The notes beneath the pieces are model-generated. The model had not been told where the DNA came from, did no database searches, and saw only the letters and a program-made list of their open reading frames with translations. Source: Membranipora membranacea (lineage: Eukaryota > Bryozoa > Gymnolaemata > Cheilostomatida > Membraniporidae). From it: a stretch of DNA of 64,000 nucleotides. Below are positions 6,402 through 61,570 of this stretch, one piece after another. The first letter of the stretch is position 1. Each line of letters opens with the position of its first letter. The translations under genes were made by a program, and so were the position numbers. The stretch covers positions 28,143,387 to 28,207,386 of the forward strand of contig OU612069.1 of NCBI GenBank assembly GCA_914767715.1. The letters run 5' to 3'.

Positions 6402-7454
6402 GGTCTTGGGTTTATCTGTGAACAGAAAGAATTAACTGTGAAAAAAAGTTGAAGGTGACAGTATGTAGTCAGTCTTAAAGAAGCATGAGCTATATCTCTA
6501 GATAGTTCATTGAGGCAAAATTTTCAAGTTATACATTCTTTTACGATGCACATAATGGATGGCAAAGACATGCATATTTTGGTTTGTTGGCCAATGAAAC
6601 CCACTATATGATTACATGCTTGAAAATCAGCAAGGCCTAATGTACGTTCATTAACTGAACTTTCTTTAGATTGTGTTTAGCTCATTGGCAATTGACAAGC
6701 CTAATGTTACCCTCTGTAAAGTTAAGAAGGCTCTAGAAGGTTTTTTTAAATATCTCTCAACATTTCCACATCTCTTGCCTCTACCACCTACCAATCAAGC
6801 AATATACTAGGCCTTTATAGTGTGCTTACAAAATCTTATCTCCAAAATTCAATCAAATTACAAAATTGGGATTCCTATCTACTCTTACAATCATGTGCAA
6901 TGAGAGGCCAACCTACCTGGTGGTAGAAGGAGGCCACTATGCAGGCTTATATGCACAGAAAAAGACATAACCCAAAGCAGGCTGTCTAGGTTGGGACCCA
7001 GCCTGACACTGCTGACAGGGAGGCTTCTAAGTAATGCAGCTTGCTTTAAAGCCCGATAACCAGTGTCCAAATTGTCCAAGAGTTGTTATATTTTGTACAG
7101 CAAACTATACCATTGAATGGTGGGCTAGACTAATTTTCCATCATGTTAGCTCTAACAGTCAACTGTCTCTGGATGATATTCACTGTGAAGATAGGCAAAG
7201 TCCTACTACACTTACTAAACTACGAACAATTTGCTATAAAATATTTTTTGGCACCATAATAATCCCAAGTTAAAACTGATAAGTATATCAAATCTTCTCA
7301 CTTACCGTAGTCAGTGGCGGATCTGCCACTTCGCATCAAAATCGACTGAACAGTTCTTGTTCAGTAGAAATTTAAGTGTTTTGTTTACTAGTCACTATGA
7401 CACAAATAACCATAATTGACTCGTTGTGTTAGTCCCAAAGAGATGTACTGTAAT
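6402..7454. other. Non-coding stretch upstream of the DUF6729-like gene
   Basis: No supported exon or repeat is seen. Short ORFs in both strands (for example 6891-7079 and 7034-7273) overlap each other and have no recognisable motif. Any promoter or 5' exon of the minus-strand gene would lie here, but I cannot point to it. Confidence 0.4.
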
Positions 7455-7520
7455 ACATAGCTCAGTGTCAGGGACGTTGGACTCTCGATCATTAGTTCCT
7501 GAGTTCGAGCCCCACCGTGT
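7455..7520 (+). repeat. tRNA-derived (SINE-like) fragment
   Basis: An A-box-like stretch (TAGCTCAGTGTCAGG) is followed about 40 bases later by a B-box-like stretch (GAGTTCGAGCCCC). The T-arm does not pair well, so this is not an intact tRNA gene. LTR retroelement copy 1 begins six bases after it. Confidence 0.45.
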
Positions 7521-7521
7521 G

Positions 7522-7525
7522 TCAC
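7522..7525. repeat. Target site duplication TCAC, left side of retroelement copy 1
   Basis: TCAC immediately precedes the TG of the left LTR and is repeated at 18611-18614 after the CA of the right LTR. Confidence 0.85.
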
Positions 7526-8299
7526 TGCTATGTTCAAAAGTGGGGGTTATTGACCACGTTCAATTATACAATTGTATATTAATAACTAACCGGTTTATAT
7601 TTGTAGAAGTGTATGACGTCTGTATGTATCTATATAGCTATAGCTCTCCTCTATGATCCGTGTGATCAGTACGGTGTCATCAGCAGAAAAGAGAGTGATT
7701 ACTGCTTCATAGGTCCCAGGAAGAGTAAGTCACATGACTAGCAGTATATAGCCTTTGGTAACTGCTAGACTTCTTATTCTGTCAATACTCAATATCTGGG
7801 TTAGACACTATACGAAAAGGGGTGCTGCTAACACCGTAGGCGACAGGCTGGATTATAACCATCCAATGATGTAGCAGACACGTATCGAAAGACAGTTCAC
7901 GTTGATGATGGATCATACTAAGCTAGTGTTTATGGGGAAAGCATATTTGGTAATTAGGATGTATGCTTTCCAAATTGAGAGCCGGTTGTCTAGCTTGTTG
8001 TTGGGATGCCAGTTTTTCAGTGTCTATTAATGGTAATACAACATCCATCAACTATTCCTTAGATTAATAGTTAGCATTTAAAATAACAATAATGTAACTC
8101 AGCTGGTAGTATGTATTATCTAGGATTTGCTTGTAAGCTATAAAGCAAGTAGGATAATTTGCTAGTTGGTTAAGAAATGAAGCAACTTGTTACTGTATAA
8201 TAAGTAATAGTAAATAAAAGATGAGCCAGTATGTTAAATAATGGCTGTCATAGTTAGACTATCCCAAGTATCCATAACTTGTAATTCCCAACTATAACA
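7526..8299 (-). repeat. 3' LTR of retroelement copy 1
   Basis: 774 bp. Begins TGCTATGTTC and ends CTATAACA on the plus strand. It lacks 12 bp present in the other three LTRs (around 8101). Confidence 0.93.
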
Positions 8300-9197
8300 T
8301 CCACCCAGATTTAAAAATGACACCTCCGGTGGCCTATGTTATCTAAACAGTTTTGAACAATCTCTTACTATGGATGAAATCTGTATGAATTCTCCAGTAA
8401 CCATAGACAATACAGGAACCAGAGAATCTGTGTAATTATCTACATGTAGAAAATTCTGTCGAAATAAAGTTCTGGGGTATTATGACACTAACCATTTCCT
8501 GCTCACATGTAAATGAGGAAAAGAAAAAAAAAGAATGACTGATAAAGATGTAAGTTTCTCAATTCCACACTTTCTCATCTGATAGGGTGTTATTATTTTC
8601 TATCTATATTATGTATTTGTCAAGGATATATATTCTTTTCTCTGCAACTCTTTTGATGAGAGTGGTTGTATTCAGATTAATTCTGTTAAATTTAATTAAT
8701 GAAAAAAACTATTATGGTAGGGGTACTCAGTTAGTAGATAGTAATAGTGATAATCATACTGATTAAATAAGTGAAGAATAAGAAAAAAAAGATCTATTCT
8801 GGATATAATATTAACTTATTACTAAATACTTTTATGGCTCTTCATAAGCCACAGGAGGTCAATATTCTTGTGTCAGTTTATCAATATATAGATAATATGT
8901 ACCATAAATTAGAACTTTAACTGCAAAGTTGTCCAATTCATCCAAATTCTGCATAAATGTAGGTATAATTCATACCTTTTGATTAGATTTGTTTTGTATT
9001 TGTGTGTGTTTTTTTTTTTAAAGATTCAAATTCACATATCAAGTCCAAAGGGTTACCTGTAATGTAATGGGTGGTTAACATAGAATGATATGTGTGGTGG
9101 GTGAAATTTTCATTTTTACCCTGTAGTTGTGTTGGATATCTAAATGCTTACTAGAGAAAATGGCTATGATACTTATATAATTATTGTTTGTTTTCAG

Positions 9198-9587
9198 TGC
9201 CCAGAGAACTGTCTGTGCTTTCCACAGCAAAACATCTGTTCACTCATCAAAACTATAATATCTACAGCAGTAAAAACTGTCTCGACCACAGCAGCGACAA
9301 CTGCTGCCACCACCACCCCAACTACCAGTATGCAGTGGACTTCTACCTCCACTATTCCAATAACAGTTGGTGAGTTGAATAATGAGCTAAAGACTGAAAT
9401 TTTGTTTACACTCAGGGTAAGTAATTCCTATATTTTAATTTAATATGATGAGATAGTTATTGACCCAAATTTTAATGTTTTCTGTATTTCTGTTTGAGAC
9501 TGGGAGATCGCTGGGCCCATGATGGCCGGCGTAGGGATCCTTATTTTTATTCTTTCATGTATATTTTGTCGAAAAAAAGTGAAATAA
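9198..9587 (+). CDS. Antisense two-exon membrane-protein gene within the retroelement (copy 1)
   Basis: Exon 9198-9369 follows a TTTGTTTTCAG acceptor and ends at GTTG|GTGAGT (phase 1). Exon 9499-9587 completes the codon and ends in TAA, with AATAAA at 9583-9588. Exon 1 starts with a CPENCLC cysteine cluster (LRRNT-like spacing) and runs into a Thr-rich stalk. Exon 2 encodes one transmembrane segment (GVGILIFILSCIF) and a short Lys-rich tail, so the product looks like a type I membrane anchor. If the acceptor is not used, an ATG at 9144 opens the same frame. A separate 5' exon was sought in 8300-9197 but not proved. The gene runs opposite to Gag-Pol, between integrase and the 3' LTR. It could be a captured 3' end of a host receptor gene or an element accessory gene. 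Confidence 0.6.
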
Positions 9588-9716
9588 AGTTTAAATTAAC
9601 CCTAAAAAAAAACTCATATTATAAATAAACTATCACTCCCAAAATCAAAATTGTCTGTCCACAGACAGCTCAAAATTATAAAAACTTTTCTGTTGGAGCT
9701 TTCTATTTGGTAAGTC

Positions 9717-11105
9717 CTAACCGCTGCTGTATATGAACTGAGGATCACGCTTCTTGCGAGGGCGTCTCCTCAGTCCATCCTTCCTTGTTTCTCTGTTTGG
9801 CGTTCCGTAGCCAGCTTCACCAACGCTTGGAGCTTCAGTTGAAGCTCCTTTCTTGCTTGAGCTTACTTGTCCTACATCAGACTCGGTGCTCTCATCTTTA
9901 TCTTTCTTTTTCAGTCCACCAGAAGCAGATGAATGTCTGAAGTTACCTACCGTGTTGTCTGTGGCATTGTCGTACACGTCGAGATCATCTGACTCCTGTA
10001 GGCTGTCTTCTGAGTCGTCCTCCTGAGACTCTGCAACATCCTCCTCATCAGACACAGGTGAGTCGAAATCCATCTCTCCTTGGTCAGAGTCTGGCAGTCC
10101 TCTTACTAGGGGTCCCATGTATATCTTCAACTTGTTTAAATGGACAGTGAATGCAGGCCTATCCGGGTCATTGAACGCCGAAAGCCTTGCATTCGTGTCC
10201 GTAACATGTTTAACTATATATGGGCCCTGCCAGCGTCTCAGCAGTTTTGTTGTCCTTTTCCGATAGCCTCTAGGGTTGTAATAAAGGACCGCGTCACCAA
10301 CCTTTATATTGCTTGGGGACGACTTACGGTCATAGTAATATTTCTGTGTCCTTTTGCCCTTTTCTATTGCCTCTCTTGCTGCCTTCCAAACCACTGACAT
10401 CCGCTTGTGTAGACCTGCAGCAAATGTGCCAGGCTCAATCCATTCTGGTGCTGTGGGCAGCATCATTTCATGTGGTAACCTCAGTTCTCTGCATTGTAGC
10501 AAGAGACTAGGAGAGGCGTTGATGATGGTGTGTCGCGAGCTATTGTGGGCCAGCATCACAAATGGTAAGTATGCACACCAGTCAATGTGTGACTCATTGA
10601 CTACATGTGAGAGTGCATGGGCTATTGGTCTGTTGTAGACCTCAACTTGACCATTGCACTGAGGGTGGTATGGAGTGGTAACTCTGTGGTCCACCTTCAG
10701 TAGTTTATTGATCTCCCTGACAATCTCACTCAGAAAATTCTTAGCGCGGTCGCTGATTAGCACCCGACTGGCTCCATAGCGACAAAATATGCGCTCAACA
10801 TAGGATCTAGCTACTGTCTGAGCCGTCTGATCTGGTGTCGCCTCCATCTCCGTCCATTTAGTGTAGTGGTCAGTCCAAACCAGGATGTGTTTATTCCCTC
10901 TGTTTGAAGTCATGTAGGGGCCCTGAAAATCGACTGACAATATTTCAAATGGTGACGTGGCCATCTGATTTTTCAGGGGTACCCTCATTGGTTTCTTCGG
11001 ATCCTTTTTCCTCTGGCAGGAGTCGCACTGACTGATGTACTCAGTGACTTCTCTTGTCATGTGAGGCCACCAGTACTGACTCCCGATTTTAGTAGATATA
11101 CACAC
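9717..11105 (-). CDS. Integrase part of Pol, cut off by deletion (copy 1)
   Basis: This frame holds the end of the zinc-binding region (YWWPHM...CDSCQRKK), the D,D-35-E integrase core (LSVDFQGP, ISDRAKNF, then Glu in GQVEVYNR), a GPY module (RWQGPYIV) and an acidic Ser/Glu/Asp-rich tail ending at TAG. The integrase would insert the element's DNA into the chromosome. The first 16 or so residues are not integrase: they come from out-of-frame RNase H sequence joined by the 445-bp deletion. It is therefore not expressed as part of an intact polyprotein here. Confidence 0.9.
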   Translation of the reverse strand: MCISTKIGSQYWWPHMTREVTEYISQCDSCQRKKDPKKPMRVPLKNQMATSPFEILSVDFQGPYMTSNRGNKHILVWTDHYTKWTEMEATPDQTAQTVARSYVERIFCRYGASRVLISDRAKNFLSEIVREINKLLKVDHRVTTPYHPQCNGQVEVYNRPIAHALSHVVNESHIDWCAYLPFVMLAHNSSRHTIINASPSLLLQCRELRLPHEMMLPTAPEWIEPGTFAAGLHKRMSVVWKAAREAIEKGKRTQKYYYDRKSSPSNIKVGDAVLYYNPRGYRKRTTKLLRRWQGPYIVKHVTDTNARLSAFNDPDRPAFTVHLNKLKIYMGPLVRGLPDSDQGEMDFDSPVSDEEDVAESQEDDSEDSLQESDDLDVYDNATDNTVGNFRHSSASGGLKKKDKDESTESDVGQVSSSKKGASTEAPSVGEAGYGTPNRETRKDGLRRRPRKKRDPQFIYSSG

Positions 11106-13105
11106 GCCATGTTGTCAGTCTGGATGAAGAAATGGACATTCATCAGATATCCTCGATATCTCTTTACTGCGCTCAGTATTGCAAACAACTCCTGTTCGCA
11201 TGTTGCCCATTTTCTCTCACACTTGTTTAGTGTCTTGCTAAAGAAGGATATCGGGTGATGCTTGTTATCCTCTCTCAACTGAGAGAGGACAGCTCCGATA
11301 CACAATCCACTTGCGTCAGTAGTGAGGGTGAAGGGCTTGGAGAAGTCTGGGAATATCAACACTGGGGCCGACGTTATGACTGACTTAAGTAAGTTCACTG
11401 CTGCTATACACTCCTCTGTCCACACAAAGGGGTTATCTCCTGTGAGCTTAGTCAAGGGCAAAACCTCCTTGCTGTAACCTTTTACAAAGCTCCTGTAAAA
11501 ACCAAACAAGCCTAACAGTCTCCTCACTTCAGTGGCAGTCTTTGGATCTGGAAAATTCCTGATCTTCTCTACATTGTGCGGCGCCACTGTAATTCCATCC
11601 TCAGAGATAACGTGGCCTAGATAGGTTATTTCTTTCTGAAAGAAATGGCTTTTACTAAGCCTGTATCTCAATCCGGTGAATCTCAGTCGCTCGAATACAG
11701 TCCGTAGTAGTGTGATGTGGGAGTCGAAGTCAGCTGAAGTCAACAACCAGTCGTCGAGGTAGACGACTGAGGATCCCGAACTTATCAAATCTGCCATAAT
11801 GGCCATTGATAGTCTAGCAAAGGTGCTAGGGGATCCACTGGCTCCTTGGGGCATAACTTTCCATTTATAACAACCCCAAGGCGTTATAAATGATGACTTC
11901 TCTCGCGAATCTTCATGCAGTTTAACTTGAAAAAATCCTGAACAGAGATCAATTGCACTGAAAAACCTTTTCCCGTGCATGATCTCCATAACATTGTCGA
12001 TGTTTGATAAGCACATGGATTGTTTTTCCGTGACAGCATTTAATTTCCTGTAATCTACGCAAAATCGATGGGTGTTGTCCTTCTTCTTAACTATGACTAC
12101 AGGTGAGCTCCATATCCCACTTGACATCTCAATCATCTCTCTGTCCAACATGGTGTCGATCTGTTTCTTTATTTCGGCTCGCAAACCTACAGGTATGTTG
12201 TATGGCCTACTCCTGATGGGTGTCACTCCTGGTTGAGTTTGTATGAAATGTTGAACCACGTCAGTCCTTCCTAACTCGTCTAGTCCTTCTCCTATAATGT
12301 CTGAGAATTCGTTGATGAGGTCACGCAGAATGGGCATCTGGTCATCGTCTAGAGTTGTCTTGTTTTGATCTAATGACTCACCTGGTTTCTCTTTGTTCCG
12401 TCTAGGAGTAGGTCTATTGATATTACTCATGAGAATATCATCTTCGTCCACTTCAGAGGCCTCTCCTATTAAAGTATTCACCTGGACCTGTAAAGGCTCC
12501 TGGCTCACATTCATTATAGGGACTACAATCCTGTCTTTTCTCTGTTGACTCAACGAATTTCCCACCAATAGTGATCGAGGGGTGTTGTGATTACTCCCAC
12601 TAAAGCTAAACGTATTGGACCGTGGATTGATCGGTTTGACCTCGGCTAATACAGCTACCTCAGATAATGGAAGTATGTGCACAGAATTTACTGTGCGCAC
12701 CAAGTAATTCCTTTCCGGCTCCCCCATTGGAAATTGTTGATCTCCAACTTTGAAAATGCCTTTCTTAAAATTGTAGGTGAGATCACCCAACTTCTCCAGA
12801 AAATCTGCTCCAAGGATAAGGTCCTGTGAGGTATTTTCAGCAACATGCAAACACTGATTGTACTCACTCATGCCAAGTGAGATCTTAGCTGCCGTCCGAC
12901 CTATGTTGGCTAAAGGAGTGCCTGTCACTCCTCTCGCTTCCATCTTGTCAGGATATAATGGTAGTTTCAGATCTCTACAAAGTTGGGCGTGAATGATTGA
13001 ACAAGCAGCTCCTGCATCAGCTGGCGCCCTCACTGGTTTACCATTAACCTCAATGCCGATAAGCGCGCTGCGACATTTCTTGCCACTTCTTATTCCTGCT
13101 ATCAC
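11057..13105 (-). CDS. Protease, reverse transcriptase and partial RNase H (copy 1 Pol)
   Basis: The retropepsin region has DAGAACSII at the usual active-site place, with Ala where Ser or Thr is normal, and ILGADFL downstream. RT motifs include FSAIDLCSGFFQ (first catalytic Asp) and YLDDW (YxDD box). RNase H shows TTDASG, a CEQEL Glu and QTDN, after which the frame is lost at the deletion. The open frame continues upstream in the same phase to a TGA at 13142-13144, so Pol appears to be made as a readthrough product of the upstream Gag-Env-tail frame. The listed start is a GTG, not a real initiator. Confidence 0.92.
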   Translation of the reverse strand: MIAGIRSGKKCRSALIGIEVNGKPVRAPADAGAACSIIHAQLCRDLKLPLYPDKMEARGVTGTPLANIGRTAAKISLGMSEYNQCLHVAENTSQDLILGADFLEKLGDLTYNFKKGIFKVGDQQFPMGEPERNYLVRTVNSVHILPLSEVAVLAEVKPINPRSNTFSFSGSNHNTPRSLLVGNSLSQQRKDRIVVPIMNVSQEPLQVQVNTLIGEASEVDEDDILMSNINRPTPRRNKEKPGESLDQNKTTLDDDQMPILRDLINEFSDIIGEGLDELGRTDVVQHFIQTQPGVTPIRSRPYNIPVGLRAEIKKQIDTMLDREMIEMSSGIWSSPVVIVKKKDNTHRFCVDYRKLNAVTEKQSMCLSNIDNVMEIMHGKRFFSAIDLCSGFFQVKLHEDSREKSSFITPWGCYKWKVMPQGASGSPSTFARLSMAIMADLISSGSSVVYLDDWLLTSADFDSHITLLRTVFERLRFTGLRYRLSKSHFFQKEITYLGHVISEDGITVAPHNVEKIRNFPDPKTATEVRRLLGLFGFYRSFVKGYSKEVLPLTKLTGDNPFVWTEECIAAVNLLKSVITSAPVLIFPDFSKPFTLTTDASGLCIGAVLSQLREDNKHHPISFFSKTLNKCERKWATCEQELFAILSAVKRYRGYLMNVHFFIQTDNMACVYLLKSGVSTGGLT

Positions 13106-13141
13106 TTGTATCTTGGAGTTGGTGGGTGTGTCCGTCTGGCG

Positions 13142-13447
13142 TCATTGGAGTGAAGGGTAAAGGGGTGAATATGCAGGTGGGGCCGATGGTTTACTCCTGT
13201 CACCAAGTTCCTTGGCTACCATGTTAGGAAAATCAATGAAGCTTGTTTGCTCGGCATGATCAACGAACCTTGCCGCTCCAGCCCCACTCTCTGGGTCTCC
13301 ACTCTCTACTAGTCTCAGGTTCTCTCCTTCCTCATCTCCTTCACAATCGGAAAATTCTCCAATAGACTGGTCTGCGTCAGGTTCCGTACATTGGCTCTCA
13401 TAGTCCACTGCAGCGATAATTGGTCTGCTGATTCTGATAGTACAGCA
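13142..13447 (-). CDS. Envelope cytoplasmic-tail frame with PPAY and YPSL late-domain motifs
   Basis: The frame of the Gag-Env ORF stops at TGA 13448-13450, but the same phase stays open to TGA 13142-13144. It begins with Cys-Cys and a short basic stretch directly after the transmembrane segment. It continues as an acidic region and ends with PPAYSPLYPSLQ, which carries both a PPxY motif (NEDD4-type ligase binding) and a YPxL motif (ALIX binding) used for budding by retroviruses. There is no ATG at its start; it needs TGA readthrough or a separate transcript. Copy 2 has lost nearly all of it. Confidence 0.55.
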   Translation of the reverse strand, partial: CCTIRISRPIIAAVDYESQCTEPDADQSIGEFSDCEGDEEGENLRLVESGDPESGAGAARFVDHAEQTSFIDFPNMVAKELGDRSKPSAPPAYSPLYPSLQ

Positions 13448-16400
13448 TCACCTGTATAGGACAGCCCCTAATAGAATTACCGCAATCAGGCTGGTAATGC
13501 AATTGCAGGCCAGAGTCCACAGCTCAAAAACGGACGACACGTGACCACCTGTCAAGAATGCCATCCATGCGCCACCAATTAAGTTTTCTTTCGATTCTAC
13601 AACATTCTTCTCTAGAGTTTTATGCGGTCCTGACTGAATCCCCATGGCTTCCAACACCTGTTTCTGCCTACTGAGTGTGGCTAAGACATCATTAAGGTCA
13701 GAGTGTGTGGAAAAGGATTGCCAATTCAAATGATAGGCCAAGTTGTATGTAGTCTCATGAATGGTCAGTGGATGAGCGCCCAATGATATTCCTGGTATAT
13801 CTAAGCTCTCAGCCTCAGAAATCAACTCAAGTGAGCCATTCTGATGATACCACTGTAATTCGCCTTTGATTCGCAGCGGTATTACCGGTGTGTCCTTGCA
13901 AGGCACAAACATGCTCTGACGGTATACTACATTGTCTGATGGGTCGAGGAAACCGCTGTGACTGACCCCGCTGACTGTAAGATTGACTGGAATGAACGCT
14001 GTGCAGTTATCTTCTGACATAGGTAGGAGGGTAAAGTTTGTGATGGGTGTACAAGGGAATACCTGTAGAAAGCCAGGGCCTGCCTCAGCTCTGACATGGC
14101 TTGTACCCATCAAAAACCGTGCTGTCATTGTGAGATGCTGTTCCGCGAGGATACTGATCGTCTTGAGAACTTGTACCATGTTGTTACAAGTGTACTTGTA
14201 GGATGACCAGTATAGTTTTAACTGTACCTCAGCCAAATCCATTGCCAATGGTTGGATCATACCACTTATTTGACTGAGCAACTCGCGGTATGCACTGCCG
14301 GCCTTTATAGTACCCGCTACACTTGCATTTACACCCTCAACAATCAGCGAGCTATTCAAATTGGTAGTGTTGAACTTCACTACCAGACCTTGGTCTGACA
14401 GTGATACCTTGCTGTGGTTACATGTTGAGCGTGTGTTTAAACCATTTTCATTGAATGTCGGCGCTAAATCATCTTTTGAGCTCACAAAATGTCCATCCAG
14501 AAATTTCCCTTCTATCTTGTACCACTCCTGGTACTGGCAAAGAGATTCCCTCTCCACGTCCCACATTAACATCGAACCATCCGTCAAGGTACAGTGACCT
14601 ACACTATACTCACCACAATGTGAAACATCACCAGCACTACTCCTGAAACTATTCTCCCCAAACTTCTTATAAACTGACGCCTCTATATAACTACATTGGC
14701 TGACTGGAAATTCATGCCATTTACAGCAGTATTTGTAAGAGATATCAGCCTCATTAGAAGTTGTGTAAACCCCGTTTGAACCAGACAGTGACCCGTGGAT
14801 ACAAGACTTTGACCTCACCATGTCCACACACTCCCCATGAGAAACCGATTTCATAGAATTAGACACTTTCTTATCCCTAATATCACTGAAAAATGATATT
14901 TGTGTGGAGACCAGTACCTTTGTTTTAAGGCACTGATAGGCTTTTGTTTTCCATTCTATGAAATTCTCACGGAGGACTGTGGCTAGCACAGGTGTTGGTT
15001 GGAACCGTCCTGTACTCGTAGGAGCTGTCTGACAGGTATAACGATGGTTGAGGGGATGAATTGATGGTCTGGCTACCGCTGCGGAGCCACAATTCATCGG
15101 AAACTCAGCATATACTGGTTTTGCCTGAGTCTCATTGCTCGACAGGGCTGTTGCCTGTCCAAGAAAACCACAGAAAGCAAGAGTACCTATAACCATAAAC
15201 TGGGCATATGAGAGTTTTCCTCCCTTGCCCTTCTTCCTGTTTCCAGGTTTACTAAAACTAACCGAATTCACACCTGTACCAGAGTCTGAGCCTTTTTCAT
15301 CCTCAGTAGGTGGTTGTGAGAGAACGAATTCCGCGAACTCGTCCCCTTCCAGGTCGACCATATTGACGGCCTGATTTAGGGGACACTCATTTGCATAGTG
15401 TCCTATTTTCTGGCACTTAAAGCACTGAACTGAGTTGGAGTTGGCCTGATTAAGCTTATCAGGCGATCCAGATCCTTGACCTCCATAGCTCATCTGAGCC
15501 CTTGAAGGATCTTGGGGGGATTTCCCTTGGTATCCACCCCCTCGGTAGTTACCACCCTGGTATCCACTACCTTGTTGTCTACCCCCTTGGTAGTTATTTC
15601 GGTTCCCCGGGTAACCTCCCCTGTTTCCTCTTTCCCTACCCCTATAGCCTTTATTATTATTATATGGTTGTCTCGGCTGTTGTGCATTAGCCCTTGCCTG
15701 AGCTTGGCTAGCCACTAAGGATTTAAGAGCAGCTACCTCCTTTTTCAAGGAGTCCATCGAGCCACCCTGACCATGACCTACAGCCGCAACCAGCTTAGTG
15801 CTGGCCCGCCTATCGTTAGCCATTTTATGGTCAACGTCTTCGATTTTGGCTGCTTCCTTCCTAGCAGCTTCCAAGCTCTTTGGCCTCTTCTTTAACAACG
15901 CCCTTTTCAGCTCTGGTTTTAGCCCATTCACAAAGGCTTGCACCAGAATAGAGTCTTTGTGGGTGGCTGACAGGTCAGGCCACAAAGAATTGGCGGCTTC
16001 CATAAAACAACCATAATATTCCAGCACGGAGGTTCTGTTGTCCTGTTTAACATCCCAGATCAGGGTCCCACTGTCCATGAATTCTCCAGTCAGGGCAGCC
16101 TTCAACTTGATGAAGCTGTTTCCCAGAGCTGGGTTGTTGTTGACCACTGACCTGTAGACCTGGTAGGCCCCACCCTCCAAAGCATCTGGCAAGTGGTTGG
16201 CCAGCTGACTATCATTCAGTTGCATCTTATTGATGCTCTTCTCCCATTTCTCTAAGAAACTCACCCAGTTCTCACCAGGGTTTCCTTTAAATGAGATGGT
16301 GGGAGCTGTGTCTCTGATATAGACTGGACCTCCAGTCGTACAGCTAGCACTACCACTGCTAAATGGAGAGGACGGTGCCTGTTGTGTAGGTATCCTATTA

Positions 16401-17119
16401 GGGGGTAATTTGATAGTATGCGTGTTCTGAGGGGTCAGTGATGGTTGTAATTGTGTAGTGTGGACAGTTGGTCGTTGAATTTGGTTGGGTAAAGCCTGAT
16501 TCTGGGGGGCGATTGGTTGTTGGAATTGGTTAGGGATATCCTGTTGCTGGGGTATGGCTGGGAAATTCTGAATTTGAGGCGGTAATTGGGTTTGCATGTG
16601 AGCAGCTAATTGCCCTTGGAGATTAGCCGGTAAAGCTGCCCAAAACTGCGCAAAGTCGTACGGAATAGGTTGTGTAGGTGCTGGCTGCGGAGGGGCAGGT
16701 GCTCTGATAGCGCTATGGTTTTGAAGTCTAGGTCTTACTACGAATCCTGGTGGTAATTGTGGTTGGGGAATTGGTGGCAAATGTCGTTGTTGGGCTGGTG
16801 GATGTGCAGGTCGTGGCGGTTGCTGCTGTTGGGGGGGTGGTGCCTGGTGTGCAGGTCTAAGAAGCCACCCTCCCTCAACATCAGCATCGCCGTTTACTGC
16901 ATTTCTACCATCAGCCTCAGCAGCAGCAGGTCTATCTGCTGGTTCCTGTTGGAATTGGCCGTCTCCCATTTCCGGAGGTCTTAACACAACGCGATCACGG
17001 TTAATAGCAGTTTCTAAATTTTCAAGGTTTCTTTGCTCTTGTAAATCATTTACATCCTCATCAAGCCCTGTGGCTGCATCCACACGTTCAATACTAGTAT
17101 TGGATGAATGATCCGACAT
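13448..17119 (-). CDS. Gag fused in frame to an envelope-type glycoprotein (copy 1)
   Basis: 1223 codons from ATG 17117-17119. Residues ~1-270 are Gln/Pro-rich. About 270-420 resemble a retrotransposon Gag capsid (FKGNPGENWVSFLEKW). An RGG-rich stretch follows, then a CCHC knuckle (CFKCQKIGHYANEC, ~563-576). At ~640-662 a basic stretch precedes a hydrophobic signal-peptide-like segment (MVIGTLAFCGFLGQATA) with its own Met. About 540 residues with many Cys and nine N-glycosylation sequons come next, then a C-terminal transmembrane segment (SLIAVILLGAVLY). The Gag part builds the particle; the rest looks like a viral entry glycoprotein. Its Cys/Trp pattern resembles glycoproteins of some negative-strand RNA viruses (chuvirus-like), but this is only an impression. 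No furin site is obvious. Confidence 0.85.
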   Translation of the reverse strand: MSDHSSNTSIERVDAATGLDEDVNDLQEQRNLENLETAINRDRVVLRPPEMGDGQFQQEPADRPAAAEADGRNAVNGDADVEGGWLLRPAHQAPPPQQQQPPRPAHPPAQQRHLPPIPQPQLPPGFVVRPRLQNHSAIRAPAPPQPAPTQPIPYDFAQFWAALPANLQGQLAAHMQTQLPPQIQNFPAIPQQQDIPNQFQQPIAPQNQALPNQIQRPTVHTTQLQPSLTPQNTHTIKLPPNRIPTQQAPSSPFSSGSASCTTGGPVYIRDTAPTISFKGNPGENWVSFLEKWEKSINKMQLNDSQLANHLPDALEGGAYQVYRSVVNNNPALGNSFIKLKAALTGEFMDSGTLIWDVKQDNRTSVLEYYGCFMEAANSLWPDLSATHKDSILVQAFVNGLKPELKRALLKKRPKSLEAARKEAAKIEDVDHKMANDRRASTKLVAAVGHGQGGSMDSLKKEVAALKSLVASQAQARANAQQPRQPYNNNKGYRGRERGNRGGYPGNRNNYQGGRQQGSGYQGGNYRGGGYQGKSPQDPSRAQMSYGGQGSGSPDKLNQANSNSVQCFKCQKIGHYANECPLNQAVNMVDLEGDEFAEFVLSQPPTEDEKGSDSGTGVNSVSFSKPGNRKKGKGGKLSYAQFMVIGTLAFCGFLGQATALSSNETQAKPVYAEFPMNCGSAAVARPSIHPLNHRYTCQTAPTSTGRFQPTPVLATVLRENFIEWKTKAYQCLKTKVLVSTQISFFSDIRDKKVSNSMKSVSHGECVDMVRSKSCIHGSLSGSNGVYTTSNEADISYKYCCKWHEFPVSQCSYIEASVYKKFGENSFRSSAGDVSHCGEYSVGHCTLTDGSMLMWDVERESLCQYQEWYKIEGKFLDGHFVSSKDDLAPTFNENGLNTRSTCNHSKVSLSDQGLVVKFNTTNLNSSLIVEGVNASVAGTIKAGSAYRELLSQISGMIQPLAMDLAEVQLKLYWSSYKYTCNNMVQVLKTISILAEQHLTMTARFLMGTSHVRAEAGPGFLQVFPCTPITNFTLLPMSEDNCTAFIPVNLTVSGVSHSGFLDPSDNVVYRQSMFVPCKDTPVIPLRIKGELQWYHQNGSLELISEAESLDIPGISLGAHPLTIHETTYNLAYHLNWQSFSTHSDLNDVLATLSRQKQVLEAMGIQSGPHKTLEKNVVESKENLIGGAWMAFLTGGHVSSVFELWTLACNCITSLIAVILLGAVLYR

Positions 17120-17824
17120 GTTGATAAGGAATTATTTAATATCTCTCCTACTTGTTATCTGAGCCGATGATCAAATCAAGTGTCAATTAGTGAAACGCAA
17201 CAGGATTCAGTTTGTTTTGGTATTATCAGCAATACTAGTCTACTCTAATGATGTTAGAACGGTGACCTTGGTTAGGTAAAATGGATGTATATAAACCACA
17301 AGAATAAGTAGCAAATAACACGTGTTTACTAACAAGAGCCTTAAGTAGGTCAATCACAATTTTTAGTTTATGATGACAACGATTAATTGCCTCCCAGGAT
17401 TCAACTCAGAATTCTGGTATTTCTAAATGATAGCCAGTGTATTACTGTAGTATGTCTACTATGTCTTTCACTGTACTACTAATCTTGTCAAAACTGTGAC
17501 AGATTGATGTAAACCACCAGTCTATTGTGGTTATAATTACTAACTGATCTGTTTTTAATGCGTCGCTAATTGTCAGTGGTGGCCTAACCACTTTAATTCC
17601 ACCCAGGAACAAATTAATGAACTCCTGTGAATTGTGACAAGCATAAAAACAAGGCGTGATCAGTAAACTATAGTATATGTTACGTATAAATTTCCCTCAC
17701 AAGGGATATGGTACCAAACAGCAGACTAAACAGTCTGAAAAAATCACTCGCCGTGAGAAATTAAAACTAAACTCAAACTAGTCTTAAAAAAATGGCAGCG
17801 AAATCGATAGCAGCTCCACCAATT
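17120..17824 (-). other. Leader between 5' LTR and Gag (copy 1), with primer-binding site
   Basis: About 705 bp with no coding frame. Beside the LTR (17821 downward) the minus strand reads TGGTGGAGCTG, a plausible tRNA primer-binding site three bases from the LTR's CA end. The tRNA was not identified. The same leader occurs in copy 2 with a few changes. Confidence 0.6.
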
Positions 17825-18610
17825 CGCTATGTTCAAAAGTGGGGGTTATTGACCACGTTCAATTATACAATTGTATATTAATAACTAACCGGTTTATATT
17901 TGTAGAAGTGTATGACGTCTGTATGTATCTATATAGCTATAGCTCTCCTCTATGATCCGTGTGATAAGTACGGTGTCATCAGCAGAAAAGAGAGTGATTA
18001 CTGCTTCATAGGTCCCAGGAAGAGTAAGTCACATGACTAGCAGTATATAGCCTTTGGTAACTGCTAGACTTCTTATTCTGTCAATACTCAATATCTGGGT
18101 TAGACACTATACGAAAAGGGGTGCTGCTAACACCGTAGGCGACAGGCTGGATTATAACCATCCAATGATGTAGCTGACACGTATCGAAAGACAGTTCACG
18201 TTGATGATGGATCATACTAAGCTAGTGTTTATGGGGAAAGCATATTTGGTAATTAGGATGTATGCTTTCCAAATTGAGAGCCAGTTGTCTAGCTTGTTGT
18301 TGGGATGCCAGTTTTTCAGTGTCTATTAATGGTAATAAAACATCCATCAACTATTCCTTAGATTAATAGTTAGCATTTAAAATAACAATAATGTAACTCA
18401 AAGTACAGCACAGCTGGTAGTATGTATTATCTAGGCTTTGCTTGTAAGCTATAAAGCAAGTAGGATAATTTGCTAGTTGGTTAAGAAATGAAGCAACTTG
18501 TTACTGTATAATAAGTAATAGTAAATAAAAGATGAGCCAGTATGTTAAATAATGGCTGTCATAGTTAGACTATCCCAAGTATCCATAACTTGTAATTCCC
18601 AACTATAACA
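17825..18610 (-). repeat. 5' LTR of retroelement copy 1
   Basis: 786 bp, followed by TCAC at 18611-18614. Its first base on the plus strand is C instead of the T seen in the other three LTRs. Confidence 0.93.
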
Positions 18611-18614
18611 TCAC

Positions 18615-19022
18615 TGTTTGTCTCCGTAGTAAACTTCTTTCTTTACAAGTTGGGAACAAGAAGGTCAAGATAAACTCAGCAATGAAGCATAGGATAGTTG
18701 AAAACAAGGAGTAAAGTCTTTTACTCCTGGTTAAAAGTCTGCCTCCATGCTGAATTTGTTTGTTTACATTGGGTTGTTGACAGGAAGTAGAACATTGTAA
18801 GCTACTTTTTTCGCATACTTCTATGATTTGTGTACATGGATATTGCATGAAATATTAGTCTCTTACTAACAAAAAATAGAATAGACTAAAAGACAATTTT
18901 CTAATTATTAACAATAGTAAAAAACACCTCAGGGAAGAATCTGGATAAAAAAATCAAAACTCTATTGATCTTTTTCCCAATTGATTTCTCATAATAGCTC
19001 CGCATTATTTATTTCTCATTTC
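18615..19022. other. No gene recognised
   Basis: AT-rich sequence right of retroelement copy 1. The minus-strand ORF 18603-18848 crosses the LTR boundary and has no motif. Confidence 0.4.
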
Positions 19023-21461: not shown

Positions 21462-22631
21462 CGCGACAACTTGGCCCGAGCCAAACTTGGCCAAACTCGG
21501 CCCCAAGTAGTAAAACTTGGCCCCATATACTGAAACTTGGCCCCAAGTAGTAAAAATTGGCCCTCAGTACTGAAACTTGGCCTCAATTAGTAAAACTTGG
21601 CCCCATGCAATGAAACTTGGCCCCAAATATAAAACTCGGCCCCAAGTACTGAGACTTGGCCCCAATTAGTAAAACTAGGCCCCAAATATGAAACTTGGCC
21701 CCATATACTGAAACTTGGCCCCAATTAGTAAAACTTGGCCCCTCATATAAAACTTGGCCCCATGGAATGAAACTTGGCCCCAATTAGTAAAGCTTGGCCC
21801 CGGTTAATAAAACTTGGCCCCAAATATGAAACTTGGCCCAATGCAATGAAACTTGGCCCGAGATATAAAACTCGGCCTCATGTACTGAAAAGTTGCCTCA
21901 ATTACTAAAACTTGGCTCCATGTACTGAAACTTGGCCCCAATTAGTAAAACTAGGCCCCAAATATAAAACTTGGCCCCATGTACTGAAAGTTGGCCCCAA
22001 TTAGTAAAACTATGTGGGGCCAAGTTTTTTATTTGGGGCCAAGTTATACTGATTGGGGTAAGGTTTCATTAGATTGGGCCAATTTTCAGTACATGGGGCC
22101 AAGTTTTATATTTTGGGCCAAGTTTCATTGCATTGGGCCAAGTTTCATATTTGGGGCCATTTTTTTACCAATTGGGGCAAAGTTTTATAATTGGAGACAA
22201 GTTTCATTATATGCAGCCTAGTTTTATATAGGGGCCAAGTTATAGTAATTGGGGCCAAGTTTCATTACATAAGACCAAGTATCAGTACATGGGGCCAAGT
22301 TTTATATTCTGGGCCAATTCTATTGCATTGAACCAACTTTCATATTTGGGGCCAACTTTTACTTATTGGGGACGAGTTTTACTAATTGAGGCCAGGTTTC
22401 AGTACATGGGGCCAAGTTTTACTAATTGGGGCCAAGCTTTACTTATTCGGGCCAAGTTTCATTGCATCGGGCCAAGTTTTATATTTGGGGCCAAGTTTGG
22501 CTCGGGCCAAGTTTGGCTCGGGCCAAGTTTGGCCCGGGCCAAGTTTGGCTCGGGCCAAGTTTGGCTCGGGCCACGTTTGGCTCGGGCCAAGTTTGGCTCG
22601 CGCCAAGTTTGGCTCGGGCCAAGTTGTCGCG
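21462..22631. mobile_element. Foldback element built of CTTGGCCCC repeats
   Basis: The left arm (21462-~22013) consists of AAACTTGGCCCC cores every 20-30 bases with AT-rich spacers. The right arm (~22015-22631) is the reverse complement, GGGGCCAAGTTT. The outer ends match exactly: CGCGACAACTTGGCCCGAG and its complement. The terminal right 140 bp is a purer 13-bp repeat (CAAGTTTGGCTCGGGC). All ORFs across it are translations of the repeat. No target duplication is obvious. Confidence 0.85.
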
Positions 22632-27847: not shown

Positions 27848-27851
27848 GTAT
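27848..27851. repeat. Target site duplication GTAT, left side of retroelement copy 2
   Basis: GTAT precedes the TG of the left LTR and recurs at 38177-38180. Confidence 0.85.
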
Positions 27852-28637
27852 TGCTATGTTCAAAAGTGGGGGTTATTGAACACGCTCAATTATACAATTG
27901 TATGTTAATAACTAACCGGTTTATATTTGTAGAAGTGTATGACGTCTGTATGTATCTATATAGCTATAGCTCTCCTCTATGATCCGTGTGATCAGTACGG
28001 TGTCATCAGCAGAAAAGAGAGTGATTACTGCTTCATAGGTCCCAGGAAGAGTAAGTCACATGACTAACAGTATATAGCCTCTGGTAACTGCTAGACTTCT
28101 TATTCTGTCAATACTCAATATTTGGGTTAGACACTATACGAAAAGGGGTGCTGCTAACACCGTAGGCGACAGGCTGGATTATAACCATCCAATGATGTAG
28201 CAGACACGTATCGAAAGACAGTTCACGTTGATGATGGATCATACTAAGCTAGTGTTTATGGGGAAAGCATATTTGGTAATTAGGATGTATGCTTTCCCAA
28301 TTGAGAGCCGGTTGTCTAGCTTGTTGTTGGGATGCGAGATTTTCAGTGTCCATTAATGGTAATAAAACATCCATCAACTTTTCCTTAGATTAATAGTTAG
28401 CATTTAAAATAACAATAATGTAACTCAAAGTACAGCACAGCTGGTAGTATGTATTATCTATGCTTTGCTTGTAAGCTATAAAGCAAGTAGGATAATTTGC
28501 TAGTTGGTTAAGAAATGAAGCAAATTGTTACTGTATAATAAGTAATAGTAAATAAAAGATGAGCCAGTATGTTAAATAATGGCTGTCATAGTTAGACTAT
28601 CCCAAGTATCCATAACTTGTAATTCCCAACTATAACA
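27852..28637 (-). repeat. 3' LTR of retroelement copy 2
   Basis: 786 bp, TG...CA, apparently identical to 37391-38176. Confidence 0.95.
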
Positions 28638-29534: not shown

Positions 29535-29926
29535 TGCCCAGAGAACTGTCTCTGTTTCCCACAGGAAAACATCTGCTCCGTCCTCAAAACACTAATATCT
29601 ACAGCAGTAAAAACTGTCTCAACCACAACAGCGACCACTGCTGCCACCACCACCCCAACTACCAGCATGCAGTTTACCTCTCCATCCACCATTCCAATAA
29701 CAGTTGGTGAGTTGAATAATGAGCTAAAGACTGAAATTTTGTTTACACTCAGGGTAAGTAATTCCTATATTTTAATTTAATATGATGAGATAGTTATTGA
29801 CCCAAATTTTAATGTTTTTTTTTTTGTATTTCTGTTTTAGACTGGGAGATCGCTGGGCCTATGATGGCCGGCGTTGGGATTCTTATTTTTATACTATCAT
29901 GTATATTTTGTCGAAAAAAAAAGTGA
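29535..29926 (+). CDS. Antisense two-exon membrane-protein gene within the retroelement (copy 2)
   Basis: Same structure as in copy 1: exon 29535-29706 after TTTTCAG, donor GTTG|GTGAGT, exon 29841-29926 ending at TGA. An A-run two bases longer replaces the final residues of copy 1. Exon 1 differs from copy 1 at 20 of 172 bases (ten codons synonymous, seven changed: Q/E, L/V, I/L twice, A/T, W/F and T/P). Exon 2 differs at five sites, all synonymous. The CPENCLC cluster, the Thr-rich stalk and the transmembrane segment are kept. The intron between is almost unchanged. Confidence 0.6.
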
Positions 29927-30058: not shown

Positions 30059-33000
30059 CTAACCGCTGCTGTATATGAACTGAGGATCACGCTTCTTGCG
30101 AGGGCGTCTCCTCAGTCCATCCTTCCTTGTTTCTCTGTTTGGCGTTCCGTAGCCAGCTTCACCAACGCTTGGAGCTTCAGTTGAAGCTCCTTTCTTGCTT
30201 GAGCTTACTTGTCCTACATCAGACTCGGTGCTCTCATCTTTATCTTTCTTTTTCAGTCCACCAGAAGCAGATGAATGTCTGAAGTTACCTACCGTGTTGT
30301 CTGTGGCATTGTCGTACACGTCGAGATCATCTGACTCCTGTAGGCTGTCTTCTGAGTCGTCCTCCTGAGACTCTGCAACATCCTCCTCATCAGACACAGG
30401 TGAGTCGAAATCCATCTCTCCTTGGTCAGAGTCTGGCAGTCCTCTTACTAGGGGTCCCATGTATATCTTCAACTTGTTTAAATGGACAGTGAATGCAGGC
30501 CTATCCGGGTCATCGAACGCCGAAAGCCTTGCATTGGTGTCCGTAACATGTTTAACTATATATGGGCCCTGCCAGCGTCTCAGCAGTTTTGTTGTCCTTT
30601 TCCGATAGCCTCTAGGGTTGTAATAAAGGACCGCGTCACCAACCTTTATATTGCTTGGGGACGACTTACGGTCATAGTAATGTTTCTGTGTCCTTTTGCC
30701 CTTTTCTATTGCCTCTCTTGCTGCCTTCCAAACCACTGACATCCGCTTGTGTAGACCTGCAGCAAATGTGCCAGGCTCAATCCATTCTGGTGCTGTGGGC
30801 AGCATAATTTCATGTGGTAACCTCAGTTCTCTGCATTGTAGCAAGAGACTAGGAGAGGCGTTGATGATGGTGTGTCGCGAGCTATTGTGGGCCAGCATCA
30901 CAAATGGTAAGTACTCACACCAGTCAGTGTGTGACTCATTGACTACATGTGAGAGTGCCTGGGCTATTGGTCTGTTGTAGACCTCAACTTGACCATTGCA
31001 CTGTGGGTGGTATGGAGTGGTAACTCTGTGGTCCACCTTCAGTAGTTTATTGATCTCCCTGACAATCTCACTTAGAAAATTCTTAGCGCGGTCGCTGATT
31101 AGCACCCGACTGGCTCCATAGCGACAAAATATGCGTTCAACATAGGATCTAGCTACTGTCTGAGCCGTCTGATCTGGTGTCGCCTCCATCTCCGTCCATT
31201 TAGTGTAGTGGTCAGTCCAAACCAGGATGTGTTTATTCCCTCTGTTTGAAGTCATGTAGGGGCCCTGAAAATCGACTGACAATATTTCAAATGGGGACGT
31301 GGCCATCTGATTTTTCAGGGGTACCCTCATTGGTTTCTTCGGATCCTTTTTCCTCTGGCAGGAGTCGCACTGACTGATGTACTCAGTGACTTCTCTTGTC
31401 ATGTGAGGCCACCAGTACTGACTCCTGAGTTTCAGTAGTGTTTTCGTTATACCCTGATGGAGGGCGGTGAGTGAGTCATGTGAAGCCCATATGAGTGTCT
31501 TGCGTTGAGAAACTGGGATTGCCAGGCAGAGTTTGTCGTCTATCTTCTTGTATAGTACACCCCGCATGAGTTCAAAACCTTCGCTTTCCTTCCTTATCTG
31601 TCTGGTTGTCCTCTTTGATGCATCAGGCGGGAACTTTCCTCTTCTCATGAACATCAGAATGGGTCCAAGGAAATAATCCTTGGACTGGTATCCATTCATC
31701 TGCACCTCCTGCTCGCTGAGCTCTTCGTCGCTTCCGATTATCATGTTGACAAATTCTGCTCTTGATAGAGCGTCAGCGACTACGTTTTCCTTTCCTGGCG
31801 TGTGTGATATGGTGAAGTCATAATCGGCCAACTGAATAGCCCATCTGGCCAGTCTGCCTGTCAGTTCTGCCGATTTTAGTAGATATACACACGCCATGTT
31901 GTCAGTCTGGATGAAGAAATTGACATTCATGAGATATCCTCGATATCTCTTTACTGCGCTCAGTATTGCAAACAACTCCTGTTCGCATGTTGCCCATTTT
32001 CTCTCACACTTGTTTAGTGTCTTGCTAAAGAAGGATATCGGGTGATGCTTGTTATCCTCTCTCAACTGAGAGAGGACAGCTCCGATACACAATCCACTTG
32101 CGTCAGTAGTGAGGGTGAAGGGCTTGGAGAAGTCTGGGAATATCAATACTGGGGCCGACGTTATGACTGACTTAAGTAAGTTCACTGCTGCTATACACTC
32201 CTCTGTCCACACAAAGGGGTTATCTCCTGTGAGCTTAGTCAAGGGCAAAACCTCCTTGCTGTAACCTTTTACAAAGCTCCTGTAAAAACCAAACAAGCCT
32301 AACAGTCTCCTCACTTCAGTGGCAGTCTTTGGATCTGGAAAATTCCTGATCTTCTCTACATTGTGCGGCGCCACTGTAATTCCATCCTCAGAGATAACGT
32401 GGCCTAGATAGGTTATTTCTTTCTGAAAGAAATGGCTTTTACTAAGCCTGTATCTCAATCCGGTGAATCTCAGTCGCTCGAATACAGTCCGTAGTAGTGT
32501 GATGTGGGAGTCGAAGTCAGCTGAAGTCAACAACCAGTCGTCGAGGTAGACGACTGAGGATCCCGAACTAATCAAATCTGCCATAATGGCCATTGATAGT
32601 CTAGCAAAGGTGCTAGGGGATCCACTGGCTCCTTGGGGCATAACTTTCCATTTATAACAACCCCAAGGCGTTATAAATGATGACTTCTCTTGCGAATCTT
32701 CATGCAGTTTAACTTGAAAAAATCCTGAACAGAGATCAATTGCACTGAAAAACCTTTTCCCGTGCATGATCTCCATAACATTGTCGATGTTCGATAAGCA
32801 CATGGATTGTTTTTCCGTGACAGCATTTAATTTCCTGTAATCTACGCAAAATCGATGGGTGTTGTCCTTCTTCTTAACTATGACTACAGGTGAGCTCCAT
32901 ATCCCACTTGACATCTCAATCATCTCTCTGTCCAACATGGTGTCGATCTGTTTCTTTATTTCGGCTCGCAAACCTACAGGTATGTTGTATGGCCTACTCC

Positions 33001-36672: not shown

Positions 36673-37390
36673 GTTGATAAGGAATTATTTAATATCTCTC
36701 CTACTTGTTATCTGAGCAGATGATCAAATCAAGTGTCAATTAGTGAAACGCAACAGGATTCAGTTTGTTTTGGTATTATCAGCAATACTAGTCTACTCTA
36801 ATGATGTTAGAACGGTGACCTTGGTTAGGTAAAATGGATGTATATAAACCACAAGAATAAGTAGCAAATAACACGTGTTTACTAACAAGAGCCTTAAGTA
36901 GGTCAATCACAATTTTTAGTTTATGATGACAACGATTAATTGCCTCCCAGGATTCAACTCAGAATTCTGGTATTTCTAAATGATAGCCAGTGTATTACTG
37001 TAGTATGTCTACTATGTCTTTCACTGTACTACTAATCTTGTCAAAACTGTGACAGATTCGATGTAAACCACCAGTCTATTGTGGTTACAATTACTAACTG
37101 ATCTGTTTTTAATGCGTCGCTAATTGTCAGTGGTGGCCTAACCACTTTAATTCCACCCAGGAACAAGTTAATGAACTCCTGTGAATTGTGACCTGATTAG
37201 ACGACAAGCATAAAAACAAGGCGCGATCAGTAAACTATAGTATATGTTACGTATAAATTTCCCTAACAAGGGATATGGTACCAAACAGCAGACTAAACAG
37301 TCTGAAAAAATCACTCGCCGTGAGAAATTAAAACTAAACTCAAACTAGTCTTAAAAAATGGCAGCGGAATCGATTGCAGCTCCACCAATT
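36673..37390 (-). other. Leader between 5' LTR and Gag (copy 2), with primer-binding site
   Basis: Non-coding. The minus strand from 37387 reads TGGTGGAGCTGCAATCG, the putative primer-binding site, three bases from the LTR end. Confidence 0.6.
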
Positions 37391-38176
37391 TGCTATGTTC
37401 AAAAGTGGGGGTTATTGAACACGCTCAATTATACAATTGTATGTTAATAACTAACCGGTTTATATTTGTAGAAGTGTATGACGTCTGTATGTATCTATAT
37501 AGCTATAGCTCTCCTCTATGATCCGTGTGATCAGTACGGTGTCATCAGCAGAAAAGAGAGTGATTACTGCTTCATAGGTCCCAGGAAGAGTAAGTCACAT
37601 GACTAACAGTATATAGCCTCTGGTAACTGCTAGACTTCTTATTCTGTCAATACTCAATATTTGGGTTAGACACTATACGAAAAGGGGTGCTGCTAACACC
37701 GTAGGCGACAGGCTGGATTATAACCATCCAATGATGTAGCAGACACGTATCGAAAGACAGTTCACGTTGATGATGGATCATACTAAGCTAGTGTTTATGG
37801 GGAAAGCATATTTGGTAATTAGGATGTATGCTTTCCCAATTGAGAGCCGGTTGTCTAGCTTGTTGTTGGGATGCGAGATTTTCAGTGTCCATTAATGGTA
37901 ATAAAACATCCATCAACTTTTCCTTAGATTAATAGTTAGCATTTAAAATAACAATAATGTAACTCAAAGTACAGCACAGCTGGTAGTATGTATTATCTAT
38001 GCTTTGCTTGTAAGCTATAAAGCAAGTAGGATAATTTGCTAGTTGGTTAAGAAATGAAGCAAATTGTTACTGTATAATAAGTAATAGTAAATAAAAGATG
38101 AGCCAGTATGTTAAATAATGGCTGTCATAGTTAGACTATCCCAAGTATCCATAACTTGTAATTCCCAACTATAACA
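37391..38176 (-). repeat. 5' LTR of retroelement copy 2
   Basis: 786 bp, begins TGCTATGTTC, ends CTATAACA, followed by the GTAT duplication. Confidence 0.95.
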
Positions 38177-61244: not shown

Positions 61245-61570
61245 GTGAATAAGCATCACTTATTACCACTGTTACCTGACCTCTCAATATAATACAATAT
61301 TATACTAACTGATGTGGATGGTGATTATATCGACAATTTGACAATTCGACAACAAGCTGATACAGATCTTATCATCCGTCTAACTTTTCCGCACATTGGG
61401 AAGATATAATACTTACATAGGACTATTTTGCACCATGATTTATCATTTAAAGGGTTGAACCATTTTAACAACATATCAACCAATAAATGCAAACCACTTG
61501 TGTAGTGGTCGATAACATGACATGATTCAGTGATAGAGTTGTCTACACAATATTACAGGGGCACACAACT

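Follow-up and report, generated by a model that had tools for sequence, protein, structure and literature searches.

Within one gene, silent positions in the exons and positions in the intron should evolve at roughly the same pace. The small gene described here raises the question of why, between copies of one retroelement, two exons have diverged strongly and mostly silently while the intron between them has hardly changed. The gene lies in a window of 64,000 bases of the bryozoan Membranipora membranacea (C5:28143387-28207386), and the genome searched comprised 339 Mb in 18 contigs. Self-BLAST of the window revealed two copies of one LTR retroelement, with these parts:

7526..8301, minus strand: LTR of copy 1, the 3' LTR in the gag-pol sense (self-BLAST; partner 17826-18612)
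17826..18612, minus strand: LTR of copy 1, the 5' LTR in the gag-pol sense (self-BLAST)
27851..28637, minus strand: LTR of copy 2, 787 bases, 100% identical to its partner 37390-38176 (self-BLAST)
13448..17119, minus strand: Gag ORF (zinc knuckle, Ty3-like capsid) running on into a Monjiviricetes-type fusion glycoprotein (ORF list, Pfam)
11057..13105, minus strand: ORF for protease, reverse transcriptase (RT) and RNase H (ORF list, Pfam)
9717..11105, minus strand: integrase ORF (ORF list, Pfam)

With its LTRs, target duplication and RT-RNase H-integrase order, the carrier is a Ty3-type LTR retroelement. Its gag, protease-RT-RNase H and integrase ORFs, all on the minus strand, matched Ty3-type Pfam families, the matches to capsid and glycoprotein falling below the Pfam cut-off (that to the glycoprotein only just). 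Short target duplications were read as TCACT at both ends of copy 1 and GTAT for copy 2. The RT ORF has relatives in the databases (best 55% identity), and none was confirmed among viral contigs. Gag and the chuvirus-type glycoprotein domain share one 1223-codon frame (13448-17119, minus strand) ahead of pol, an unusual site for an envelope-like domain. A Monjiviricetes-type domain in a retroelement recalls the capture of chuvirus (Jingchuvirales) glycoproteins by retroelements, as described in the available parts of PMC7642597 and PMC10084718; here the domain follows Gag in one frame, in contrast to the captured glycoproteins in those parts of the two reports. The window also holds a tandem array that repeats about every 900-925 bases (53282-61592) and, between the two element copies, dense direct and inverted repeats (21462-22631), both seen by self-BLAST.

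A small spliced gene was predicted between integrase and the 3' LTR, on the plus strand and opposite to gag-pol. Its parts are as follows (L001-L007 are genomic copies introduced below):

9050..9197, plus strand: 5' flank of exon 1 with TTGTTTGTTTTCAG at its end; 0-2 differences in 147-148 among L001-L007
9198..9369, plus strand: exon 1 of copy 1 (Cys cluster, Thr-rich stalk), ending in phase 1
9370..9498, plus strand: intron of copy 1 (GT...AG)
9408..9422, plus strand: ACACTCAGGGTAAGT, an intron motif that resembles an acceptor followed by a donor and can be recognised even in remote copies
9499..9587, plus strand: exon 2 of copy 1 (single transmembrane (TM) stretch, basic tail), including the stop codon
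29535..29706, plus strand: exon 1 of copy 2
29707..29840, plus strand: intron of copy 2 (134 bp)
29841..29926, plus strand: exon 2 of copy 2
8535..8549, plus strand: weak candidate for a first coding exon (MTDKD, donor GTAAGT), the best phase-0 donor, with a chance probability of 0.10-0.24
9583..9612, plus strand: AATAAA (9583) then nine A (9604-9612), a possible poly(A) signal and relic

The splice sites, phase and frame named in the preliminary description of this DNA were present in both window copies. The spliced translation of copy 1 reads CPENCLCFPQQNICSLIKTI...(Thr-rich)...DWEIAGPMMAGVGILIFILSCIFCRKKVK, and the predicted order of Cys cluster, Thr-rich stalk, one TM stretch and basic tail, encoded opposite to gag-pol, agrees at the sequence level with what had been described. 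Hydropathy reached its maximum of 2.28 in one stretch and the tail is CRKKVK, predicting a single TM and a basic patch. A search of 5.8 billion proteins that depends on shared five-residue words gave no relative at an E of 1 or below, and Pfam and PDB sequence searches with the predicted protein gave nothing meaningful. The product would probably serve the element as an accessory protein at the membrane, translated from an antisense transcript, and might act like sORF2 of insect elements or like an antisense regulator. At the 3' end, the AATAAA at 9583 overlaps the stop codon and the run of nine A lies 21 nt further on. Read on the opposite strand, this run (9604-9612) is a pyrimidine tract preceding an AG.

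A gene query of 390 bp gave 14 matches in the genome. Nine were full-length or nearly so (L001, which is copy 1; L005, which is copy 2; L002, L003, L004, L006, L007, L008 and L009), and five were partial (two on C6; L012, C7b and C7c on C7). An upstream query gave 12 matches, representing ten of the gene-query loci and one further piece on C6. Open frames and splice sites were intact in L001-L006; L007 had two extra bases in exon 1, L008 was without the acceptor AG, L009 without the donor GT, L012 was shifted in frame and C7b carried a stop in the frame of the gene. L001-L007 have LTR, upstream region and pol pieces in common and are called family 1. The gene was present in 7/7 family-1 copies and its frame open in 6/7; these copies all came from the gene query or the upstream query, to which elements without both regions would be invisible.

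In the flanks retrieved for L008 and L009, RT and integrase could not be recognised, save 31 integrase residues at L009, and both copies were left out of the pol and LTR comparisons, the DNA there being unrelated. The idea that they belonged to other element families, with a pol unrelated to this one, was dropped, as no recognisable pol was found in their flanks. The last 31 integrase codons (9717-9809) adjoin L009 without the remaining pol and may have come along with the antisense gene. Integrase alignment was poor in the 5' part of L007 and in one stretch of L002. At L010 (C6:26454620-26456006), three tandem gene pieces (a, b and c) lay within ~1.4 kb, with the intron recognisable in each. 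On C7, two inverted 1.59-kb near-copies (15186673-15188257 and 15238334-15239902, 93.5%) contained a remote intron and exon 2, and L003 and L012 were located between them. C7b/C7c as an exon of a host gene was considered and dropped, a stop being present in the gene's own frame.

Between L001 and L005, exon 1 differed at 20/172 bases and exon 2 at 5/86, all five silent, against 2/129 plus a change in T-run length in the intron. Outside the gene, differences were 7/889 upstream, 2/111 in the 3' region and 12/1300 on the integrase side. In 150-bp bins of the compared element pieces, 0-7 differences were counted outside the gene, and 19, 3 and 7 in the three gene bins, the 19 belonging to the first bin of exon 1 (copy 1 13179-14416 and copy 2 31423-31866, having no counterpart, lay outside the comparison). 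In all, 25 of 48 differences fell within 258 of 2687 sites (hypergeometric P 5e-14, with sites taken as independent). Alignment error was rejected, in-frame exons, splice sites and flanks being aligned in the intact copies. The exon-restricted divergence of the two window copies reported in the preliminary description is real. Its limits need correction: the differences lay within the exons, at 9215-9353 and 9518-9554, but did not reach the exon ends. Over the nine copies, 42/49 interior codons of exon 1 varied while the first five and last three were invariant, and in exon 2 only one of the first five whole codons varied. Uniform divergence of exon and intron over many copies, named beforehand as the contrary outcome, was not the pattern of the copies found.

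Third codon positions held most of the exon differences. When the six intact copies were compared across exon groups, pS was 0.07-0.43 and pN 0.03-0.13 in exon 1, and pS was 0.12-0.52 and pN 0.00-0.02 in exon 2; divergence was 0-1.6% for the intron with the 148-bp 5' flank and about 1-7% for integrase silent sites. In exon 2, 4-9 silent and 0 replacing changes separated L001, L004/L005 and L006, two silent changes separated L003 from L006, and L002 had one replacing change of its own. The encoded protein is conserved, since pN/pS is low and six copies keep an open frame and splice sites.

For the pairs L001-L005, L004-L006 and L001-L006, respectively, pooled silent exon divergence was 17/63 (0.27), 28.5/63 (0.45) and 15/62 (0.24), that of intron plus 5' flank was 0.011, 0.011 and 0.007 (2-3 differences in about 274), and that of integrase silent sites was 0.027, 0.039 and 0.034. 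The silent exon excess was about 25-40-fold over intron plus 5' flank (Fisher P 4e-11, 2e-20 and 2e-10) and about 7-12-fold over integrase silent sites (P 5e-9, 7e-16 and 5e-7), in tests that treat sites as independent and on pairs that are not mutually independent. Sister pairs showed little excess: pooled silent divergence was 0.02 for L001-L002 (P 0.46), and for L004-L005 (P 0.03) pS was 0.04 in exon 1 and 0.00 in exon 2. The make-up of substitutions was ordinary (kappa 2.27 in exons, 2.35 upstream).

The exon excess is not clocklike. L001-L002 and L001-L004 each differed at 10/888 upstream sites, but at 3 versus 22 exon bases, with exon silent divergence of 0.02 versus 0.24 (Fisher P 0.006). 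At 20 exon sites, L004/L005 had a common state that was absent from the other four intact copies, and 16/20 of these states did not occur in L007, L008 or L009 either, in two cases because of gaps. Outside the exons, the LTR had 9 sites private to L004/L005, the 5' flank and the intron one each (that of the intron next to its T-run), and 8302-9049 none. The exons of L003 alternated between L001-like and L006-like; a one-breakpoint fit accounted for 19/24 sites (P 0.016), with further switches present.

The exons of L007 were nearest to those of L008 (pS 0.14, versus 0.44 to L001, 0.39 to L006 and 0.39-0.63 to the others overall), while its 5' flank was of family-1 type (1/147, versus 13/147 to L008). 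Upstream data rejected a grouping of L007 with L008 (AU P 0.003). Exon data rejected neither this grouping nor an L001-L007 clade (AU P 0.09 each), and with intron data the likelihoods did not separate the two. The exon and upstream trees were compatible in topology and differed in branch lengths. From these comparisons, the discord in branch lengths is better read as exchange, which is not thereby proven; because the topologies are compatible and AU P is 0.09 for both groupings, an exon exchange between L007 and L008 is suggested, not proven.

The explanation that we prefer, tentatively, is that recombination joined old exon versions, shaped by purifying selection, to a young backbone whose intron is under constraint. 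Several old exon versions would have drifted apart at silent sites while the protein stayed constrained, and recombination between co-existing copies would have placed different versions on one young, nearly identical backbone, possibly by template switching between co-packaged RNAs or by conversion within the genome. Recombination is invoked because divergence is not clocklike and exons are patchworks. The exchanged stretch would take in the intron; were it contiguous, constraint would have to hold the rate of the intron several to forty times below that of silent sites. Functional constraint would slow both intron and 5' flank to this extent, and with so little change in either, differences would seem confined to the exons. 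Conversion by a related sequence had been proposed in the preliminary description; from related copies it is borne out in outline by the non-clocklike divergence, the L003 patchwork and the nearness of L007 to L008, but not by any donor. No donor with L004/L005-type exons was present among the loci from the gene and upstream queries (one set of loci), which counts against a contiguous exchange; donors would be absent from the assembly or left only as fragments. More than one switch in L003 and the 9 private LTR changes on the L004/L005 branch also tell against it.

How slowly, then, does the intron change? Among L001-L007 it differed by 0-5% and the upstream region by 1-5%. Over its first 92 bases, differences were 2/91 for L008 with an exon pS of 0.43, and 9/89 for L009 with 0.60. 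In the oldest fragments, intron versus exon 2 differences were 12/120 versus 13/59 (C6b), 23/126 versus 13/56 (C6c), 22/122 versus 13/49 (L012) and 28/109 versus 11/54 (C7b). The contrast thus shrinks or vanishes there, as expected if these fragments are dead, and it is no independent proof of constraint; for a contiguous exchange this is a weakness. Such an exchange also needs strong constraint on ~275 bp of AT-rich, near-invariant noncoding DNA, for which no structure or Rfam family was found: folding energies gave no RNA structure signal on either strand of the intron, 5' flank or 3' flank (z -0.56 to 1.14), and 7400-18800 had no Rfam match at gathering score.

A possible but less probable alternative to this contiguous exchange is that cDNA of spliced antisense RNA from diverged relatives served to rewrite the exons, the looped-out intron being kept. 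It explains the backbone-like intron divergence in L001-L007 without constraint, and it accounts for exon 1 and exon 2 versions staying linked across a nearly constant intron. Variation ending three to five codons inside the junctions might suit the edge of a loop, although splicing itself may limit variation near junctions, and the A-run 21 nt past AATAAA is also in its favour. However, template switching onto spliced RNA would usually delete the intron, and 0/9 full-length matches were intronless. The state of one intron T indel also tracked that of the 12-bp exon-1 insertion in 9/9 copies, which counts against such rewriting. If information did pass from spliced antisense RNA back into intron-bearing copies, which we consider rather improbable, the element could reassort coding versions of its accessory membrane gene independently of intron and backbone.

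It is unlikely that the donors were a host gene family, the source of the element's gene, with the C6, C7 and C10 pieces as its paralogues. L008 (C6, with three tandem pieces) and L009 (C10) do carry the gene without recognisable RT or integrase, and C7b and C7c have 1.59 kb in common. Against this, the pieces look broken (L008 in its acceptor, L009 in its donor, L012 in frame, C7b by a stop), and what C6, C10 and L012 have in common is only a stretch also found in the element. The C6 similarity extends to the LTR edge, and no protein relative was found.

Slightly more doubtful are two explanations that act on the exons in place. In the first, sense genomic RNA and spliced antisense mRNA would form a duplex over the exons only, giving exon small RNAs from which variants escape silently. 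Such selection predicts exon-only, protein-conserving divergence, as observed, and the longest identical run in exon 1 was 17-20 nt between several groups (for example L001-L006, L004-L006 and L005-L007). Yet exon 1 runs of 23-37 nt persisted between L001/L002 and L004/L005, exon 2 runs reached 43 nt between other pairs, and sister pairs showed little excess. By a rough estimate the run lengths fit random placement, with no clear sign of escape from 21-nt small RNAs. In the second, held to be equally doubtful, a mutational process would strike the exons of active elements steadily more often. An excess was seen on several branches (L004/L005 0.093 versus 0.0035 upstream; L006 0.047 versus 0.0035). 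For the targeted diversification proposed earlier, which is doubtful, the ordinary kappa gave no sign of a special mutator and the sister-pair excess was small; the changes were of many types, and no known process would produce them. A steady exon mutator is disfavoured because L001-L002 and L001-L004 match upstream but not in the exons, exon and backbone divergence not being proportional.

Strong positive selection on a fast-evolving surface protein, the remaining earlier suggestion, would suit a Thr-rich, stalked TM protein whose divergence is confined to its exons, but it is rejected as highly improbable because silent change predominates and the protein is conserved, pN lying well below pS between exon groups (in exon 2 of intact copies, 0.00-0.02 against a pS of up to 0.52). 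In venom PLA2 genes, whose introns are conserved, and in HLA genes, whose introns are homogenised, exons diverge more than introns. An excess of replacing over silent change in exons, as in genes of the venom PLA2/MHC type, was not found here. In such genes replacing change is favoured, according to the available part of PMC7150969, unlike the mostly silent change and conserved protein of this gene.

In position, between pol and the 3' LTR in opposite orientation, the gene resembles aORF-3R genes, the antisense additional ORFs known from plant LTR elements, of which maize Grande gene23, rice RIRE2 and Silene Retand TRP28 are examples in the available parts of PMC7264820 and PMC11963269. According to the same parts, aORF-3R genes are kept in most copies and their proteins are mostly without known relatives. 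This gene was in 7/7 family-1 copies reached by queries with the gene or its upstream region. Unlike the aORF-3R products, described there as nuclear or DNA-binding-like, the gene here has an intron and a predicted single-TM protein, and the word 'intron' is absent from the main texts of PMC7264820 and PMC11963269, whose available parts describe no divergence limited to exons. The accessible portion of the aORF-3R review mentions non-plant cases and urges that antisense and spliced transcripts be looked for. Very short single-TM proteins with a basic patch after the TM are also known as sORF2 of insect MDG1-group elements and as reovirus FAST proteins (PMC11952523, in the part available), sORF2 being likewise carried by an LTR element. 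In that account sORF2 lies upstream of gag, in sense, on unspliced RNA, a position that differs from the one found here. The present element, unlike sORF2 elements, also has an envelope-like domain, and the likeness to sORF2 and FAST proteins lies in the predicted TM and basic patch.

A partial literature search, with terms that were not specific, found no report of exon-only silent divergence in an antisense gene of an LTR element. HBZ of HTLV-1 has a spliced structure. HBZ and its relatives are also antisense genes near the 3' LTR (PMC11963269, in the part available). HBZ is a nuclear regulator, whereas a TM protein is predicted here, and the likeness lies in orientation and position. Judged from its sequence, the gene would add an intron-bearing example with a predicted membrane protein to the antisense genes of LTR elements. 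Its pattern of divergence means either that function is packed unexpectedly densely into intron and flank, or that the exons move and leave the intron behind.
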